Shown here: positions 17,063 to 23,340 of the stretch, piece after piece
How the letters are laid out: every line of letters begins with the position of its first letter
How positions within the stretch are numbered: the stretch's first letter is position 1
DNA from: Methanosarcinaceae archaeon
GTDB lineage: Archaea; Halobacteriota; Methanosarcinia; Methanosarcinales; Methanosarcinaceae
DNA length: 38,714 nucleotides
NCBI GenBank assembly: GCA_003565715.1
Contig: PXAV01000141.1
Location: 1-38,714, forward strand
Direction of reading: 5' to 3'
Made by a program: the position numbers and the translations under genes
The notes under the pieces: model-generated
What the model was told of the DNA's origin: nothing
Databases searched by the model: none
Seen by the model: the letters and a program-made list of their open reading frames with translations, nothing else

Positions 17063-18685
17063 ATGGATCGTGATATATCAAATACCTCAATGATAGAGAG
17101 AGTTACAGAGTTGATCAATGTCTGCTCTGAAGGACTGTACGAAAGAGAGGAGATTGTTGCAGTTTCACTTCTTTCAGCCATTTCCGGACAATCTGTTTTC
17201 CTTTATGGTTTACCAGGGACGGCAAAAAGTCTGATTGCACGCCGTATATCAAAGGTCTTTAAAGATGCATCACATTTTGAATATCTGATGCAGAGCTTTA
17301 GTACTCCAGAAGATATTTTTGGACCAGTGAGCATCCAGGAACTAAAAAAAGACAACTACGTTCGTAAAACTGAAGGATATCTGCCTACTGCAGATTTTGC
17401 TTTTCTTGATGAGATATGGAAAAGCAGTCCTGCTATCCTGAACACATTGTTGACAGTTATCAACGAAAGGATTTATCGAAACAATGGCCGAGAAGAAAAG
17501 GTTCCACTAAAGGCATTGATAGCTGCAAGCAACGAAACACCACCATCCAACCAAGGTCTTGAAGCTCTATATGATCGTTTCGTGATGCGGGTGGTAGTAA
17601 ATCCAATGCATGAAAGAGAGAACTTTGAGAAATTGCTTGAAGGCGGACCAGTTTCCATTGATATAATGGTTCCTGATTGGTTGCAATTCTCACATGCTGA
17701 GTGGGAAGAATTGCCTGATGAGATCTACAAGGTAACTATTTCAAGAGAAGTATTTGCTATTATCAATTCTATCAGATGTCTGATCGATGAATTCAATAAG
17801 AATAATCCCGATATTGCAGTTTATGTTTCCGACCGCAGATGGCAAAAAATATCATTTGTATTAAAGGCTTGTGCATTTTTATGTGACAGAACTGAGGTTA
17901 TACCTGTTGATACATTCATATTGAGACATTGCCTGTGGACACTTGAAGAGAACATAGCACATATTGATGAAATCGTTTTTAGAAGTGTGAAACAATTTAG
18001 CTTGCCTTATAGTGAAAGGTTAGATCATTGGATATCAACTTATAATGATATTGAAAAAGATGTATCAAAAGTATTTTTCTATACAGAGGATATTTACGAT
18101 ACAAAAAAGATTGATGGTAAAGAATGCTTTTCAGTTATCTCCCCGGAAATCAAAAGAGACCCCAATAGTCCTGATCCTGTCAAGATAAAAGTTAGTTTTT
18201 ATATACCTGTAGAGAAGATGGGGACATGTGAATCCTTTGAACCACTTGATGAGAGTGGAAAGTTGCTTTCCAAGTTGGAGTGTAACTTTAACGGACGAAA
18301 TTCATGTAAGGTCAAAATACAGGAAAAATTACTCAAAAGTGGATGGAATTTTCCTCTTAAAACCACATCATATGTTGATTGGTTTGAAATAGAACCACCT
18401 ATAAAATTTGAAAGGGATAGTCAAAAAAGTATTACTCCGAATGTTAAACATGATTTTGAAGTTATGTGTAAAAGCTCTCTGGAACATATAGAGGACATTA
18501 TTGATGATGCAAGCACTTATATAAATAAACAAAAAAAGTATAATAGAACTCCATTTATACCTGCTGAGAATAGAGAACTTATACATGCTAGTTTGCATGG
18601 TTTTCTCAATGATCTGGAGAACCATAGGTTAAATGTTGAGCATTTATTGTATAAGGTGCGATCGCATGAAATCTATGAACCATGA
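17063..18685 (+). CDS. ravA: RavA, MoxR-family AAA+ ATPase
   Basis: A 540-residue hexameric-type AAA+ ATPase of the RavA branch of the MoxR group, partner of ViaA. Walker A is GLPGTAKS (49-56), Walker B FLDE (114-117), sensor 1 N157 in AASNETPP, and the arginine finger R172 in ALYDRFVMR. RavA-specific stretches are LYEREEIVAVSLLSAISGQS, FSTPEDIFGPVSIQELK and DEIWKSSPAILNTLL. The C-terminal part (about 340-450) is beta-rich like the LARA domain of E. coli RavA, and the protein is about 40 residues longer than that one. RavA-ViaA in E. coli is tied to respiratory complexes and membrane lipids; the role in archaea is open. It overlaps viaA by 20 bp, so the two are translationally linked. Confidence 0.93.
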   Translation: MDRDISNTSMIERVTELINVCSEGLYEREEIVAVSLLSAISGQSVFLYGLPGTAKSLIARRISKVFKDASHFEYLMQSFSTPEDIFGPVSIQELKKDNYVRKTEGYLPTADFAFLDEIWKSSPAILNTLLTVINERIYRNNGREEKVPLKALIAASNETPPSNQGLEALYDRFVMRVVVNPMHERENFEKLLEGGPVSIDIMVPDWLQFSHAEWEELPDEIYKVTISREVFAIINSIRCLIDEFNKNNPDIAVYVSDRRWQKISFVLKACAFLCDRTEVIPVDTFILRHCLWTLEENIAHIDEIVFRSVKQFSLPYSERLDHWISTYNDIEKDVSKVFFYTEDIYDTKKIDGKECFSVISPEIKRDPNSPDPVKIKVSFYIPVEKMGTCESFEPLDESGKLLSKLECNFNGRNSCKVKIQEKLLKSGWNFPLKTTSYVDWFEIEPPIKFERDSQKSITPNVKHDFEVMCKSSLEHIEDIIDDASTYINKQKKYNRTPFIPAENRELIHASLHGFLNDLENHRLNVEHLLYKVRSHEIYEP

Positions 18686-20135
18686 AATTGCTAATGTATA
18701 CGATATGGCCAACATTCTTTTAAAAGAAAAATTCCCAGAGCTGGCTGAAGAAAGATTTAAAGTTGTATTAAACAGAAAAGTCAGTAAGTGGGAAAGTACA
18801 ATCCGTAGTCATCTGGAACAAAATGATCCTTTTAAAGAGCATGGATCAAAGTTGAATTTTGCTGAGTGGGATTTCAAGACGAATGGTGCATGCAAAGAAT
18901 CGATACAAAATGACTTGAATAATTACAGATTACTTCATCCATCTGTAAATGTCACATTCTGGGAGAAAAAAACACATATTCTAAAAAAATACGGGGGAGA
19001 AAAGAGTGGAATATCATTAACATACGCCCTCAATACGATTCGTAGAAATGAACTGGAAGCATGGAAAAATGAGTACAAAAACCAGTCGCTAAAATGGCAC
19101 ATAAAGGAAATAAAAAGACATAGCCAACAGTTAGCCAAAGAATTGGAAGAATGGTTTGAAACGGTAAAGGAAATCAAGGAGGCTTTTGATGAGCTTGCTA
19201 TTGACTCTGGTATCCTCTGGGATCTGTGCGCAGAGGACTTAAGTGAGCAGGATGTTTCCTTCCTTAAACAGTGGACTGAATATCTCAGAATGGATAAAAA
19301 TGTCCTAAAAATGTGTGAATTGATGGGGAGGTTACAAAAAGAACATCCATCTGAACGCACAGAGACCATCGATTCGACTATCACACAATGTGTCAGCAAA
19401 GCAGATAAGAATTTAAATGAACTAGTAGTTGGAATTGGACTTAACAGGGATCTGGAAAATGTTATACCACTGGAGATGGCTCTTTTAAGTGATCTTGATT
19501 TTGAATTACTTTTTGACTTAAAGTATGTTGAAAAGAGACTGATGTGTTTCTCCAAGCAAGGGTTTAAAAAAGAGATGATTGAAGAAAACATTCAGAGAAC
19601 TGTTACAGTTATTGATGAAGAAAAGAAGGGACCTGTAATCATTTGTCTTGACACAAGTAATTCTATGTCAGGACCTCCGGAATACATAGCCAAGGCATTG
19701 ACCCTGAATATAGTATCAAGGGCAGCTTCACAAAAGAGAAGGTGTTATTTGATCAATTTCAGCAGCTCAATAGAAACCTTTGATCTAACCCCTCCGGGAG
19801 GTATCCGTGATATGATAGATTTCCTCAAAATGAGCTTTCATGGCGTTACTGATGTTGTGCCGGCTTTACGCGAGGGGATCCATATGATGCAAAACAAGGA
19901 TTATAAAAAAGCAGACCTATTGGTCATATCTGATTTCCTGTTCCCTCAGTTGCCTTGCGACATTGTTGCCATGTGCAAAAAACAAAAACAGAAAGAAAAC
20001 CGTTTTTTCGCATTGGTTATCAATTCTTTTCTCAATAACAATGTTGACCAGGATGTTTTTGACCGTTGCTGGAACTATAACACTGATATCGGTAGCCTGT
20101 CAGAAATGAACAAAACTACTGATATGGCTCTGTAG
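18666..20135 (+). CDS. viaA: ViaA, VWA-domain partner of RavA
   Basis: A 489-residue protein: a helical N-terminal two-thirds and a von Willebrand factor A domain from about residue 322. The metal site (MIDAS) is D329-T-S331-N-S333, with T395 in FHGVTDVVPA and D423 in LLVISDFLFP. The family string RRCYLINFSSSIE is present and length matches E. coli ViaA (483). An in-frame ATG at 18633 exists, but the ATG at 18666 has AGGTG about 7 nt upstream and gives the expected N-terminus. The gene ends in TAG, the only amber stop among the complete genes here; read-through would add 12 codons to a TAA at 20169-20171. A T8 run (20150-20157) follows. It overlaps ravA by 20 bp. Confidence 0.93.
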   Translation: MKSMNHEIANVYDMANILLKEKFPELAEERFKVVLNRKVSKWESTIRSHLEQNDPFKEHGSKLNFAEWDFKTNGACKESIQNDLNNYRLLHPSVNVTFWEKKTHILKKYGGEKSGISLTYALNTIRRNELEAWKNEYKNQSLKWHIKEIKRHSQQLAKELEEWFETVKEIKEAFDELAIDSGILWDLCAEDLSEQDVSFLKQWTEYLRMDKNVLKMCELMGRLQKEHPSERTETIDSTITQCVSKADKNLNELVVGIGLNRDLENVIPLEMALLSDLDFELLFDLKYVEKRLMCFSKQGFKKEMIEENIQRTVTVIDEEKKGPVIICLDTSNSMSGPPEYIAKALTLNIVSRAASQKRRCYLINFSSSIETFDLTPPGGIRDMIDFLKMSFHGVTDVVPALREGIHMMQNKDYKKADLLVISDFLFPQLPCDIVAMCKKQKQKENRFFALVINSFLNNNVDQDVFDRCWNYNTDIGSLSEMNKTTDMAL

Positions 20136-20181: not shown

Positions 20182-20255
20182 TGGGCCCGCTGAGATTCGA
20201 ACTCAGGATCCCCGCCGTGTAAAGGCGATGTCATAACCGGCTAGACCACGGGCCC
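20182..20255 (-). tRNA. tRNA-Val, anticodon UAC
   Basis: A 74-nt cloverleaf on the minus strand. The acceptor stem pairs GGGCCCG with CGGGCCC plus discriminator A. The anticodon loop is TTTACAC, reading UAC (valine) and closed by a 5-bp stem with one G-U pair. The T arm contains GTTCGAAT closed by a 4-5-bp stem (TGAG/CTCA). The D arm contains CTAGCCGGTTATGA. CCA is not encoded: the bases after the discriminator are CCTC. There is no intron. A strong TATA/BRE lies 65 bp upstream. Confidence 0.95.
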
Positions 20256-20444: not shown

Positions 20445-20747
20445 TTATACCATATAATCTACAACTATGCGATTCTTGCTTATCTTGCCGACAAATTCAG
20501 CAACATCCAGGTGATCCGGGTGATTCAGATACAACGTGAACCTTGCTTTATCCCTAAACTCTGAATAAAGCACCACATCATATGCTGATTTTGAGGGATT
20601 TATGTTTATGCCCACCTCTATCTTCTCTATCTCAGGTATCATATCCCTCAGAGCTTCAAGCATCCCCTTCATAATCATGGCGTTCTCTGTTTTGCTATTA
20701 TCCTCAGCATAATCCTTTAGCTCCCACATCACAATATGTTTTAGCAT
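20445..20747 (-). CDS. Dabb-domain (stress-responsive alpha/beta-barrel) protein
   Basis: A 100-residue protein made of one Dabb domain. The start MLKHIVMWELKDYA, the central strand IEKIEVGININPSKSAYDVV, the strand/helix YSEFRDKARFTLYLNHPDHL and the closing FVGKISKNRIVVDYMV are all standard for the family. These small dimeric ferredoxin-like barrels have varied and mostly unproven roles. GAGGT lies 6 nt before the ATG. It stands alone, on the same strand as the tRNA-Val downstream of it and divergent from the cation transporter operon. No catalytic residues can be claimed. Confidence 0.85.
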   Translation of the reverse strand: MLKHIVMWELKDYAEDNSKTENAMIMKGMLEALRDMIPEIEKIEVGININPSKSAYDVVLYSEFRDKARFTLYLNHPDHLDVAEFVGKISKNRIVVDYMV

Positions 20748-20890: not shown

Positions 20891-21514
20891 ATGTCCCATG
20901 ATGGAAGTGATGATGGCCAGGAATATGAGATAGAGGCCGTTGATGAATACATCGGTGATTACGGAAGTGTCCGTTCCATTGTACGCGAGGCGTTGCCATT
21001 TGAACTTTTGGCCACCTTGGGAGGTGTAATGGCAGGAGTCATCCTCTCAGGTATGACAGAAGAATTAGAGATGTTACCTGGACTACTTGTAATAACTCCT
21101 GCAGTACTTGGAATGCGTGGTAACATTTCATGTGCACTTGGCTCCCGTCTTGGAAGTGCCATACACATGGGTCTTATAACAAAGATAGATGCAAATCCTG
21201 AACTTGTAAACAACGTATCAGGCTCACTTTTATTAAGTTTATTATTGTCGATTGTACTGGGGTTTTTAGGTCATATAATAACTATGGCTTTTGGAATGGA
21301 AAGTGCAGGTGCACTTACCCTTATAATGATAGCGGTCATTGCCGGGGTAACTTCTGGCATAATACTTGCAGTAATCGCTGTGTTGCTGGCAATTGGAATG
21401 TTCAGGTTTGGATTTGATCCTGATAATGTAGTAACACCAATGATAGCAACAATCGGTGATGTGGTAGCCATGCTGATACTCTTCTGGACTGCAAAGGTGG
21501 TGCTGATGATATGA
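20891..21514 (+). CDS. SLC41/MgtE-type divalent cation transporter subunit, first half-transporter
   Basis: A 207-residue membrane protein with an acidic cytosolic N-terminus (about 40 residues) and about five helices. The family signature is PAVLGMRGNISCALGSRLGS, which lines the ion path of MgtE/SLC41 proteins, followed by AIHMGLI. The second signature near the end is GFDPDNVVTPMIATIGDVVA. It is one integral domain, half of an SLC41 carrier, so it must pair with another subunit, most simply the product of the next gene. The two genes overlap by 4 bp (ATGA), so translation is coupled. Mg2+ is the best-known substrate of the family, but another divalent ion is possible. It lacks the N and CBS domains of bacterial MgtE; a separate cytosolic protein downstream may replace them. 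Confidence 0.85.
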   Translation: MSHDGSDDGQEYEIEAVDEYIGDYGSVRSIVREALPFELLATLGGVMAGVILSGMTEELEMLPGLLVITPAVLGMRGNISCALGSRLGSAIHMGLITKIDANPELVNNVSGSLLLSLLLSIVLGFLGHIITMAFGMESAGALTLIMIAVIAGVTSGIILAVIAVLLAIGMFRFGFDPDNVVTPMIATIGDVVAMLILFWTAKVVLMI

Positions 21515-22068
21515 GCTATTATACAGTAAAAGGTATAGTTAGCAGAGGCATGCCTGTTCTTTTGGCCACATCTGTGATAGGTGTCCTGGCGGGTCATTTC
21601 CTGAACATGGAGATAGAGAACCTTGTTTCCATGCCTCTTATACTGGTATTGATCCCGGCTCTCATCAAGATTGGAGGCGACACCGGGAGCATGCTTGGAG
21701 CAAGGGTTTCAACATCACTGCATATGGGTCTTGGAAGTCATATACACAAAAATCCTGTGGTTCGCAACAGTGTTATAGCAGCACTTATCGTTGGAATATC
21801 TGCCTGCACATTCGTAGCATTTACAGTATGGTTCACTGGAATCCTACTTGGAATATCAATGCCACTTATGACTTTACTGGCTCTGTGTCTTATTGCAGGT
21901 ACTTTCGAGCTGTTCGTAGTTTTTGCATTGAGCATATCAAGTGCGTTCATATCCCAAAGAATAGGAGTGGATCCTGATGATACTGTAATTCCAATTGTTG
22001 CGACATTTGGGGATCTTGTAGGTGTAATAGGAATAATATTTACAATGGGTCTGCTGGGTTTAATCTAA
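21511..22068 (+). CDS. SLC41/MgtE-type divalent cation transporter subunit, second half-transporter
   Basis: A 185-residue paralogue of the preceding gene, with about five helices and almost no soluble part. Signatures line up with it: PALIKIGGDTGSMLGARVST then SLHMGLG, and near the end GVDPDDTVIPIVATFGDLVG. The glycine-rich pore signature differs (GGDTG against RGNIS), so the two halves are not interchangeable and a pseudo-symmetric heterodimer is likely. Translation starts inside the stop of the first gene (ATGA). The PhoU-TrkA_C protein follows after 60 bp. It is slightly shorter than its partner because it lacks the acidic N-terminal extension. The ion is not determined by sequence. Confidence 0.85.
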   Translation: MSYYTVKGIVSRGMPVLLATSVIGVLAGHFLNMEIENLVSMPLILVLIPALIKIGGDTGSMLGARVSTSLHMGLGSHIHKNPVVRNSVIAALIVGISACTFVAFTVWFTGILLGISMPLMTLLALCLIAGTFELFVVFALSISSAFISQRIGVDPDDTVIPIVATFGDLVGVIGIIFTMGLLGLI

Positions 22069-22128
22069 AGCATAATATAAGTGTAAAAACAATAACGATA
22101 ATGTACTAACAATGAGCGGTAGGAATTT

Positions 22129-23340
22129 ATGAGTCCAAAGGAAATAAAGTATGCTCCACGCAACCTTAAAGACCTTATTAAGGAAATGAAAGATACATCG
22201 GAGCTTATGGTTGATCTTGCCTATTCGGCTATGATCTACGATGATGAGGATATTGCAGAAGAGGTCCTGCGACTTGAAGAAAAGATGGATACACTTGACT
22301 ATCACACAAATATTGCTGCAATGTTAAGTGTCAGGCGAGTCGAGGAAGCTGAGGAAATGTCTGGTGTACTGAAAGTTGCAAGTGCATCTGAAATAATAGC
22401 GAATGCAGCAGGAGATATCGCCAAGATAGTTCTTATAGATATGAGCATCCCCACAGAGCTAAAACTTGCAATGAGGGAAGCTGATGAAACCATAATCAGA
22501 GCAACTGTTTGTGAGAATTCCAGTATTGCAGGAAGGAATCTGGAAGATATAGAGTTTGATACAGAAGGCGGCATGTGGATCATAGCTATTCGTAGAAATG
22601 ATGAATGGATATATGATCCCAGCCATTCAACCCGTATCAGACAGGATGACGTGCTTTTTGCCCGTGGCCATGAAGAAGGCGTTCCTGTGTTCATGGAACT
22701 TGTAACCAACTGTAAGTACACTCCCCGGGATATACAACATGACAGATTCCTTATAGACCTTGAAAGAGCAGTAGATATAATTGTAGAAATGAAGAACATG
22801 AGCGAGCTTTCTGTTGGCCTTGCCTACTCAGCTCTGCTATTTAACAATGAGGACATCGCCCACGAAGTCAAAGCACTGGAATTAGAGATGGACTCCATGA
22901 AACATGAGCTTCAGCACTGGGTGCTTGAAACCGCAAAGCATGTTCCTGATGTCAATATATTACGGGGACTACTTCAGCTTGCTGATTCGGCAGAGTCTAT
23001 ATCAGATGCTGCCTATGCAATTGCTGACACTGTCCTAAGAGACATAGATCTCCATCCAGTCATTACCATTGCTGTCAGGGAATCTGAGCAGATAATAACA
23101 AAATTAATTGTGCAGGACTGCTCACCAATAGTCGGAAAAAATCTTGGCCAGCTGAAGCTTGAGACTGAAACTGGCTTACATGTCATGGCTATAAAAAGAG
23201 ATGAGAAATGGGTATATAGACCAAACAAAAGAACTGCTGTCATGGCCGGAGATATCATGATAGCGAGGGGTTCACGCACAGGTGAAGAGGTTTTGTTCGA
23301 GATGTGTGCATGTCCTCTTGATGAGGAAAATGATTCCTGA
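22129..23340 (+). CDS. Tandem PhoU-TrkA_C protein, predicted transporter regulator
   Basis: A 403-residue soluble protein built from two copies of a PhoU-like helical domain plus a TrkA_C (RCK-C) ligand domain: copy 1 about 8-200, copy 2 about 204-395. Corresponding stretches are LMVDLAYSAMIYDDEDIAEE and LSVGLAYSALLFNNEDIAHE, then AREADETII-type and VRESEQIITKLIVQD strands, then WIIAIRRNDEWIYDPSHSTR and HVMAIKRDEKWVYRPNKRTA. TrkA_C domains bind ions or nucleotides and gate transporters; PhoU helices bind metal clusters or membrane partners. As last gene of the SLC41 operon it probably senses the ion or a nucleotide and controls the channel halves. The two-repeat build mirrors the two half-transporters. 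It ends before T-rich DNA shared with the convergent rpiA gene. Confidence 0.85.
   Translation: MSPKEIKYAPRNLKDLIKEMKDTSELMVDLAYSAMIYDDEDIAEEVLRLEEKMDTLDYHTNIAAMLSVRRVEEAEEMSGVLKVASASEIIANAAGDIAKIVLIDMSIPTELKLAMREADETIIRATVCENSSIAGRNLEDIEFDTEGGMWIIAIRRNDEWIYDPSHSTRIRQDDVLFARGHEEGVPVFMELVTNCKYTPRDIQHDRFLIDLERAVDIIVEMKNMSELSVGLAYSALLFNNEDIAHEVKALELEMDSMKHELQHWVLETAKHVPDVNILRGLLQLADSAESISDAAYAIADTVLRDIDLHPVITIAVRESEQIITKLIVQDCSPIVGKNLGQLKLETETGLHVMAIKRDEKWVYRPNKRTAVMAGDIMIARGSRTGEEVLFEMCACPLDEENDS

Follow-up and report, generated by a model that had tools for sequence, protein, structure and literature searches.

Bacterial MgtE, as typified by the Thermus thermophilus protein (2YVX/2ZY9), is a homodimer whose chains each carry N and CBS domains alongside a pore domain of five transmembrane helices (TMs); SLC41 proteins (human SLC41A1-3 and the archaeal double-motif proteins) have two MgtE domains per unit, the PX6GN and P(D/A)X4PX6D signatures and no CBS domain. 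A 2022 review (PMC9276622) describes the archaeal and animal members of MgtE/SLC41 as lacking CBS domains and records the double-motif, CBS-free archaeal forms; it proposes that SLC41 proteins might be regulated differently, calls for large comparative genomics and, in the parts consulted, makes no mention of a regulatory partner for archaeal SLC41-type proteins. On the regulatory side, the KTN/RCK proteins TrkA, KtrA and KtrC are soluble, possess a TrkA_C (RCK_C) domain and are paired with membrane ion transporters, and Pyrococcus horikoshii PH0236 (1VCT, 2BKN, 2BKO, 2BKP) has a single PhoU-TrkA_C repeat per chain. Here we describe a three-gene unit from a 38,714-nucleotide stretch of a methane-producing Methanosarcinaceae archaeon (phylum Halobacteriota; GenBank PXAV01000141.1, assembly GCA_003565715.1; hereinafter the window, one contig, number 17, of a draft assembly totalling 2.06 Mb), in which two half-size SLC41-type genes, SubA and SubB, precede a gene, Reg, coding for a soluble protein with two PhoU-TrkA_C repeats. 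Across the phylum, the transporter and Reg are retained or lost jointly, which establishes a functional link between them. The gene families themselves are known; the pairing appears undescribed, in that no paper joining MgtE or SLC41 with a PhoU/TrkA_C protein was found in the openly licensed PubMed Central (PMC) literature.

Compared with SLC41, the unit has the same two MgtE domains and freedom from CBS, with both signatures in SubA and only P(D/A)X4PX6D in SubB, but its halves are two genes (fused in other families only), and it has a putative dedicated cytosolic PhoU-TrkA_C partner, none being described for SLC41 in openly licensed PMC papers. With bacterial MgtE it shares the homologous five-TM pore domain, the equivalent of Asp432 in TM5 being invariant. 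Reg has the fold of PH0236 and approximately 40% identity to it over one repeat, but carries two repeats on one chain; like TrkA, KtrA and KtrC it has TrkA_C domains and is paired, by genomic linkage, with a membrane ion transporter. However, unlike these it has PhoU helices and no RCK_N domain, and its partner is an SLC41-type divalent-cation transporter rather than a K+ channel.

Joint retention of the transporter and Reg

To gauge the association we scored 295 genomes, drawn evenly across the phylum, for the presence of Reg (found in 251) and of a SubA-like transporter (found in 245). Both were present in 242 genomes and neither in 41, with 12 discordant cases (9 with Reg only and 3 with the transporter only); the corresponding Fisher test (1e-37) ignores kinship and is descriptive only. 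The discordant genomes are mostly incomplete metagenome-assembled genomes: all nine Reg-only cases are at most 92% complete, and the three transporter-only cases comprise two drafts in several contigs, their listed value being 95%, and a genome that is 66% complete. Genomes with neither gene include all sampled members of three families (f7, f14 and f16 in our numbering), as well as some members of f6 (those of genera g24 and g27) and some of f25. Such a spread over families implies that joint loss (or absence) arose separately several times. Within the window's own family, the Methanosarcinaceae (f1; the nearest named kin of this genome is Methanolobus), MgtE-domain matches were recovered in 101 and Reg in 104 of 112 genomes, and in 99/99 genomes for which both positions were listed the two lie on the same contig, 80-950 bp apart. 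Since the layout is kept family-wide and the co-occurrence phylum-wide, the arrangement is not a matter of chance. A preliminary description of the locus had taken the three genes for an operon and proposed their co-occurrence across archaeal genomes as a check; they do form a conserved unit, and the link proved stronger than it had claimed.

Domains and gene layout

The features of the locus in the window are as follows:

20891-21514, + strand: SubA, an intact open reading frame (ORF) of 207 amino acids (aa) with one MgtE domain; first half of the SLC41-type transporter.
21511-21514, + strand: 4-bp overlap (ATGA) of the SubA stop and SubB start, read from the sequence.
21511-22068, + strand: SubB, an intact ORF of 185 aa with one MgtE domain; second half of the SLC41-type transporter.
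22069-22128, + strand: 60-bp gap between SubB and Reg, without a terminator-like site on this strand.
22129-23340, + strand: Reg, an intact ORF of 403 aa, soluble, with two PhoU-TrkA_C repeats; proposed gating or regulatory subunit.

The ATGA overlap, which recurs identically in most members of the family, suggests that translation of SubA and SubB may be coupled. A search against Rfam found no leader or riboswitch near the three genes, the sole match being a tRNA, and a promoter and terminator scan of the locus returned sites at or below the chance level, the consensus used being bacterial and the host archaeal.

Pfam searches recovered the MgtE domain (PF01769; cut-off 27.6 bits) as the only domain in SubA (76.4 bits, E=3.1e-21) and in SubB (63.0 bits, E=4.4e-17), with no CBS or MgtE_N domain in either. 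Against TIGR00400, the bacterial MgtE equivalog, SubA scored 21.6 bits versus a cut-off of 232.75 and SubB gave no match. Moreover, the same genome codes for a separate CBS-type MgtE (contig 52, locus L001, 1471-2550, - strand) and for CorA (contig 55), so SubA and SubB are not fragments of an ordinary MgtE. Only a few family members have PF01769 matches as strong as that of the contig-52 gene, which was therefore perhaps acquired. In Reg, TrkA_C (PF02080, E=1e-22) and PhoU (PF01895, E=3e-18) each matched in two stretches above the curated cut-offs, and Pfam found no RCK_N (TrkA_N) Rossmann domain. The ORFs and Pfam matches thus confirm what the preliminary description had read from the locus, namely a half-size SLC41/MgtE pair overlapping by 4 bp and followed by a two-repeat PhoU-TrkA_C protein.

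The pore signatures of the two halves differ, again as had been noted: SubA, which begins with an acidic N-terminus, has PX6GN at TM2 and P(D/A)X4PX6D at TM5, while SubB retains the latter and has PX6GD in place of the former, the residue at the Asn position being Asp in 5/5 sampled members of the family. Among 86 halves (43 first and 43 second, from split and fused proteins), the TM5 Asp equivalent to TtMgtE D432, a Pro seven residues N-terminal to this Asp, and a second Asp a further five residues N-terminal to the Pro are invariant (86/86), whereas the Asn of PX6GN is present in 35/43 first but only 15/43 second halves. A His and a Gly following TM2 are likewise invariant in all 86, and an Arg after TM2 is conserved; this His and this Arg are absent from the MgtE sequences compared (that of the same genome and that of Thermus).

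An AlphaFold2 model of Reg built with 48 sequences (predicted local distance difference test, pLDDT, 89; predicted template-modeling score 0.89) presents a three-helix PhoU unit followed by a small α/β TrkA_C domain, twice over. Its nearest solved structure is PH0236 (1vct; Foldseek template-modeling score 0.87-0.88 on the target, sequence profile E=3e-58), followed by the gating domains of GsuK, TrkA and MthK, and by PhoU; the full-length PhoU equivalog TIGR02135 scored 25.2 bits, below its cut-off of 130.25. Trp160/361, Arg156/357, Asp174/375 and Gly180/381 of the TrkA_C domains are present in both repeats and in PH0236.

Ancestry, split and fused forms

In a tree of 86 half-domains with two bacterial-type MgtE sequences, the first halves (SubA-like or N-terminal) and the second halves (SubB-like or C-terminal) separate once, with support of 97/86 and in 100% of bootstrap trees. 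Within each of these two groups, the corresponding halves (N or C) of the fused proteins, 24 of which were sampled, make up a single clade (100/99). The halves are accordingly fixed partners, as had been proposed, and because they represent two ancient lineages while the fused proteins form one clade, they are best read as a fixed A/B heterodimer, the A-B contact itself being predicted. A mixed MAFFT alignment of fused and half proteins placed both halves on the N half and was discarded. Split forms occupy the outer branches relative to the MgtE outgroup and the fused form is a single clade, and for this reason the ancestral state was more likely a split pair, a tentative rooting given the very long outgroup branch (3.7). 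In Reg, too, the R1 repeats part from the R2 repeats a single time (100/99), indicating one ancient duplication; PH0236 was kept outside the two groups, its placement being unsure.

Gene order varies considerably between families. Neighborhoods of the fetched loci show the split pair and Reg in a single direction in f1, f11, f17 and f21, and a fused transporter of about 400-435 aa directly adjoining Reg on the same strand in f8, f19, f26, f27 and f32. The fused transporter of f25 lies on the strand of Reg about 2.8 kb away, and that of f2 (ANME-2; loci L090, L093, L103, L139 and L140) is divergent from Reg. The split pair of f18 and f23 is convergent with Reg or within about 1 kb of it, and in f29 the transporter, as two overlapping frames, is about 0.9 kb away; in f3 the transporter was not sought in this linkage survey. 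From this variation it follows that adjacency has been kept or regained more than once. Although f2 has the same taxonomic order as f1, its transporter belongs to the fused clade; the history of the gene is therefore not that of the species, owing to transfer or differential loss.

Throughout the sampled genomes Reg is a tandem protein of about 400 aa, whether the transporter is split or fused; a 749-aa Reg ORF in L174, considered as a possible fusion, was rejected because by eye it resembles read-through of a GC-rich frame. The earlier interpretation is hence only partly supported: it had treated the split as a defining feature and the duplicated regulator as a mirror of the split transporter, but many families combine a fused transporter of about 400-450 aa with the same tandem Reg, often adjacent, and the split is more likely ancestral than derived.

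By hydropathy, the fused proteins follow a 5+1+5 helix plan, a simple scan detecting the extra hydrophobic stretch between the halves in 22/24; the remaining two were probably missed through a misplaced domain edge. With five membrane crossings per half, a helix of this kind would be needed as a linker to keep the two halves parallel in one chain.

Mechanism, ion and alternatives

We consider it likely that SubA and SubB constitute one SLC41-type divalent-cation transporter gated by Reg as its dedicated cytosolic regulator. SubA and SubB would form an obligate heterodimer, each half giving TM2 and TM5 to a single pore built like that of the two identical subunits of bacterial MgtE, without the N or CBS gating domains. 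Reg, as a soluble pseudo-dimer of its two repeats, would dock on the transporter, and binding of a ligand at the TrkA_C pair, be it a nucleotide or the transported ion, would make it open or close the pore. We infer the physical binding, the direct gating, the ligand and the direction of transport from these comparisons; it is reasonable to suppose that an RCK/PhoU-type gate, made of PhoU-TrkA_C, stands in place of the N-CBS gate. The broader proposition, toward which we lean slightly, is of a phylum-wide two-component transporter class in which a PhoU-TrkA_C pseudo-dimer rather than CBS gates an SLC41-type A/B pore, with pore and regulator both duplicated before the phylum.

The ion, assigned by family, is most likely Mg2+. 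Circumstantial support comes from CorA in a hand-picked, non-random set of 34 genomes with the system and 34 without: CorA over the cut-off is missing in 10/34 of the former versus 2/34 of the latter. Of these last two genomes, one carries an MgtE about 454 aa long and one is a draft of 88% completeness. Members of f14 and f16, which lack the system, mostly have at least two CorA genes.

Several observations weigh against this reading. Kinship confounds the CorA pattern, f16 being a single family, and the CBS-type MgtE and CorA of the window's own genome mean that the role of the three genes is not isolated there. A fused transporter modeled by AlphaFold2 with eight close relatives reached a pLDDT of only 43, which leaves homology as the basis for the pore and docking site; the model was used solely for helix layout, which matches hydropathy. 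Further, Reg and the transporter are unlinked yet both present in about a dozen families (including f9, f10, f12, f15, f22, f24, f28, f33 and f34), and regulation could therefore be indirect. The preliminary description had held that unlinked genes in relatives would refute it; this partly applies, the linkage being absent in these families, though the co-occurrence persists.

The lack of adjacency in many families would also suit a Reg that is a general, PhoU-like regulator of ion or phosphate homeostasis, sharing a regulon with the transporter without binding it. PhoU domains act in phosphate signalling, and levels of Mg2+ and of phosphate/ATP are physiologically linked. Yet the ten neighbors of unlinked Reg genes that were examined include no phosphate-transport gene and no recurring rival transporter; they are mutually unrelated (e.g., His-tRNA synthetase, CofC and NAD kinase), one of them, in L167, being a weak VIT1 match. 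A general regulator, moreover, need not vanish with the transporter, whereas complete genomes without the transporter are also without Reg, and we regard this explanation as unlikely. Sensing of cyclic di-AMP (c-di-AMP) by the TrkA_C domains, tying Mg2+ transport to osmotic/K+ signalling, seems quite improbable, even though these domains match the c-di-AMP-bound RCK_C of KtrA (4xtt), KtrC (6i8v) and the RCK_C of BusR (7b5u), and a diadenylate cyclase (PF02457) occurs in 264/295 genomes. The association of cyclase and Reg is weak (229 genomes with both, 22 with Reg only, 35 with cyclase only and 9 with neither; p=0.03), and six near-complete genomes (G309, G143, G271, G220, G178 and G204) carry Reg without a PF02457 cyclase, no such cyclase being found in any sampled f6 genome, near-complete ones included (G220, G271, G309 and others). 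One f9 genus (L196, L197, G246/G195/G358) has the cyclase within about 1 kb of Reg, but the two are convergent, with a small gene between them. The c-di-AMP motif of KtrA reportedly (Kim et al., 2015) includes an Arg and an Asn; the corresponding sites are Asp144/Trp150 and Glu345/His351 in the Reg of the window, so that both repeats differ at both. Known binders, too, follow this motif only loosely (PMC12453120). As an obligatory ligand, c-di-AMP is supported neither by cyclase co-occurrence nor by the motif.

Closer to our proposal, and differing from it in direction alone, is a transporter acting as an effluxer or exchanger (a Na+/Mg2+ antiporter, of the kind reported for some mammalian SLC41 proteins) with Reg as a brake on efflux. 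We view this as possible but doubtful: SLC41A1 has been reported as a Na+/Mg2+ exchanger, and the conserved His and Arg after TM2 set the archaeal halves apart from the compared MgtE, but the review that records the exchange (PMC9276622) also cites growth rescue of an Mg2+-uptake-deficient bacterium and Na+-independent transport, and uptake is favored by the complementary distribution of CorA, itself an uptake channel.

The finding points to an undescribed mode of control for the SLC41/MgtE class and gives the archaeal SLC41 branch a specific candidate partner. It also suggests a function for PH0236, whose structure bore the label 'potassium channel related' or 'unknown function' on its release in 2005. 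Biochemistry can draw on naturally occurring forms of a single transporter, both split (A + B) and fused, and regulation in the SLC41 superfamily becomes testable in genetically tractable archaea (such as Methanosarcina and Haloferax, control genomes of which carry PF01769 proteins).

As to the surroundings of the unit in the window, genes for a MoxR AAA ATPase (bpMoxR PF20030, AAA_lid_8) and then a VWA-domain protein lie just upstream (17063-20135, + strand) and look like a MoxR-vWA pair. Between the VWA gene and SubA are a tRNA gene (20182-20255, - strand) and a small Dabb (stress-responsive A/B barrel) gene (20445-20747, - strand), the latter divergent from SubA.
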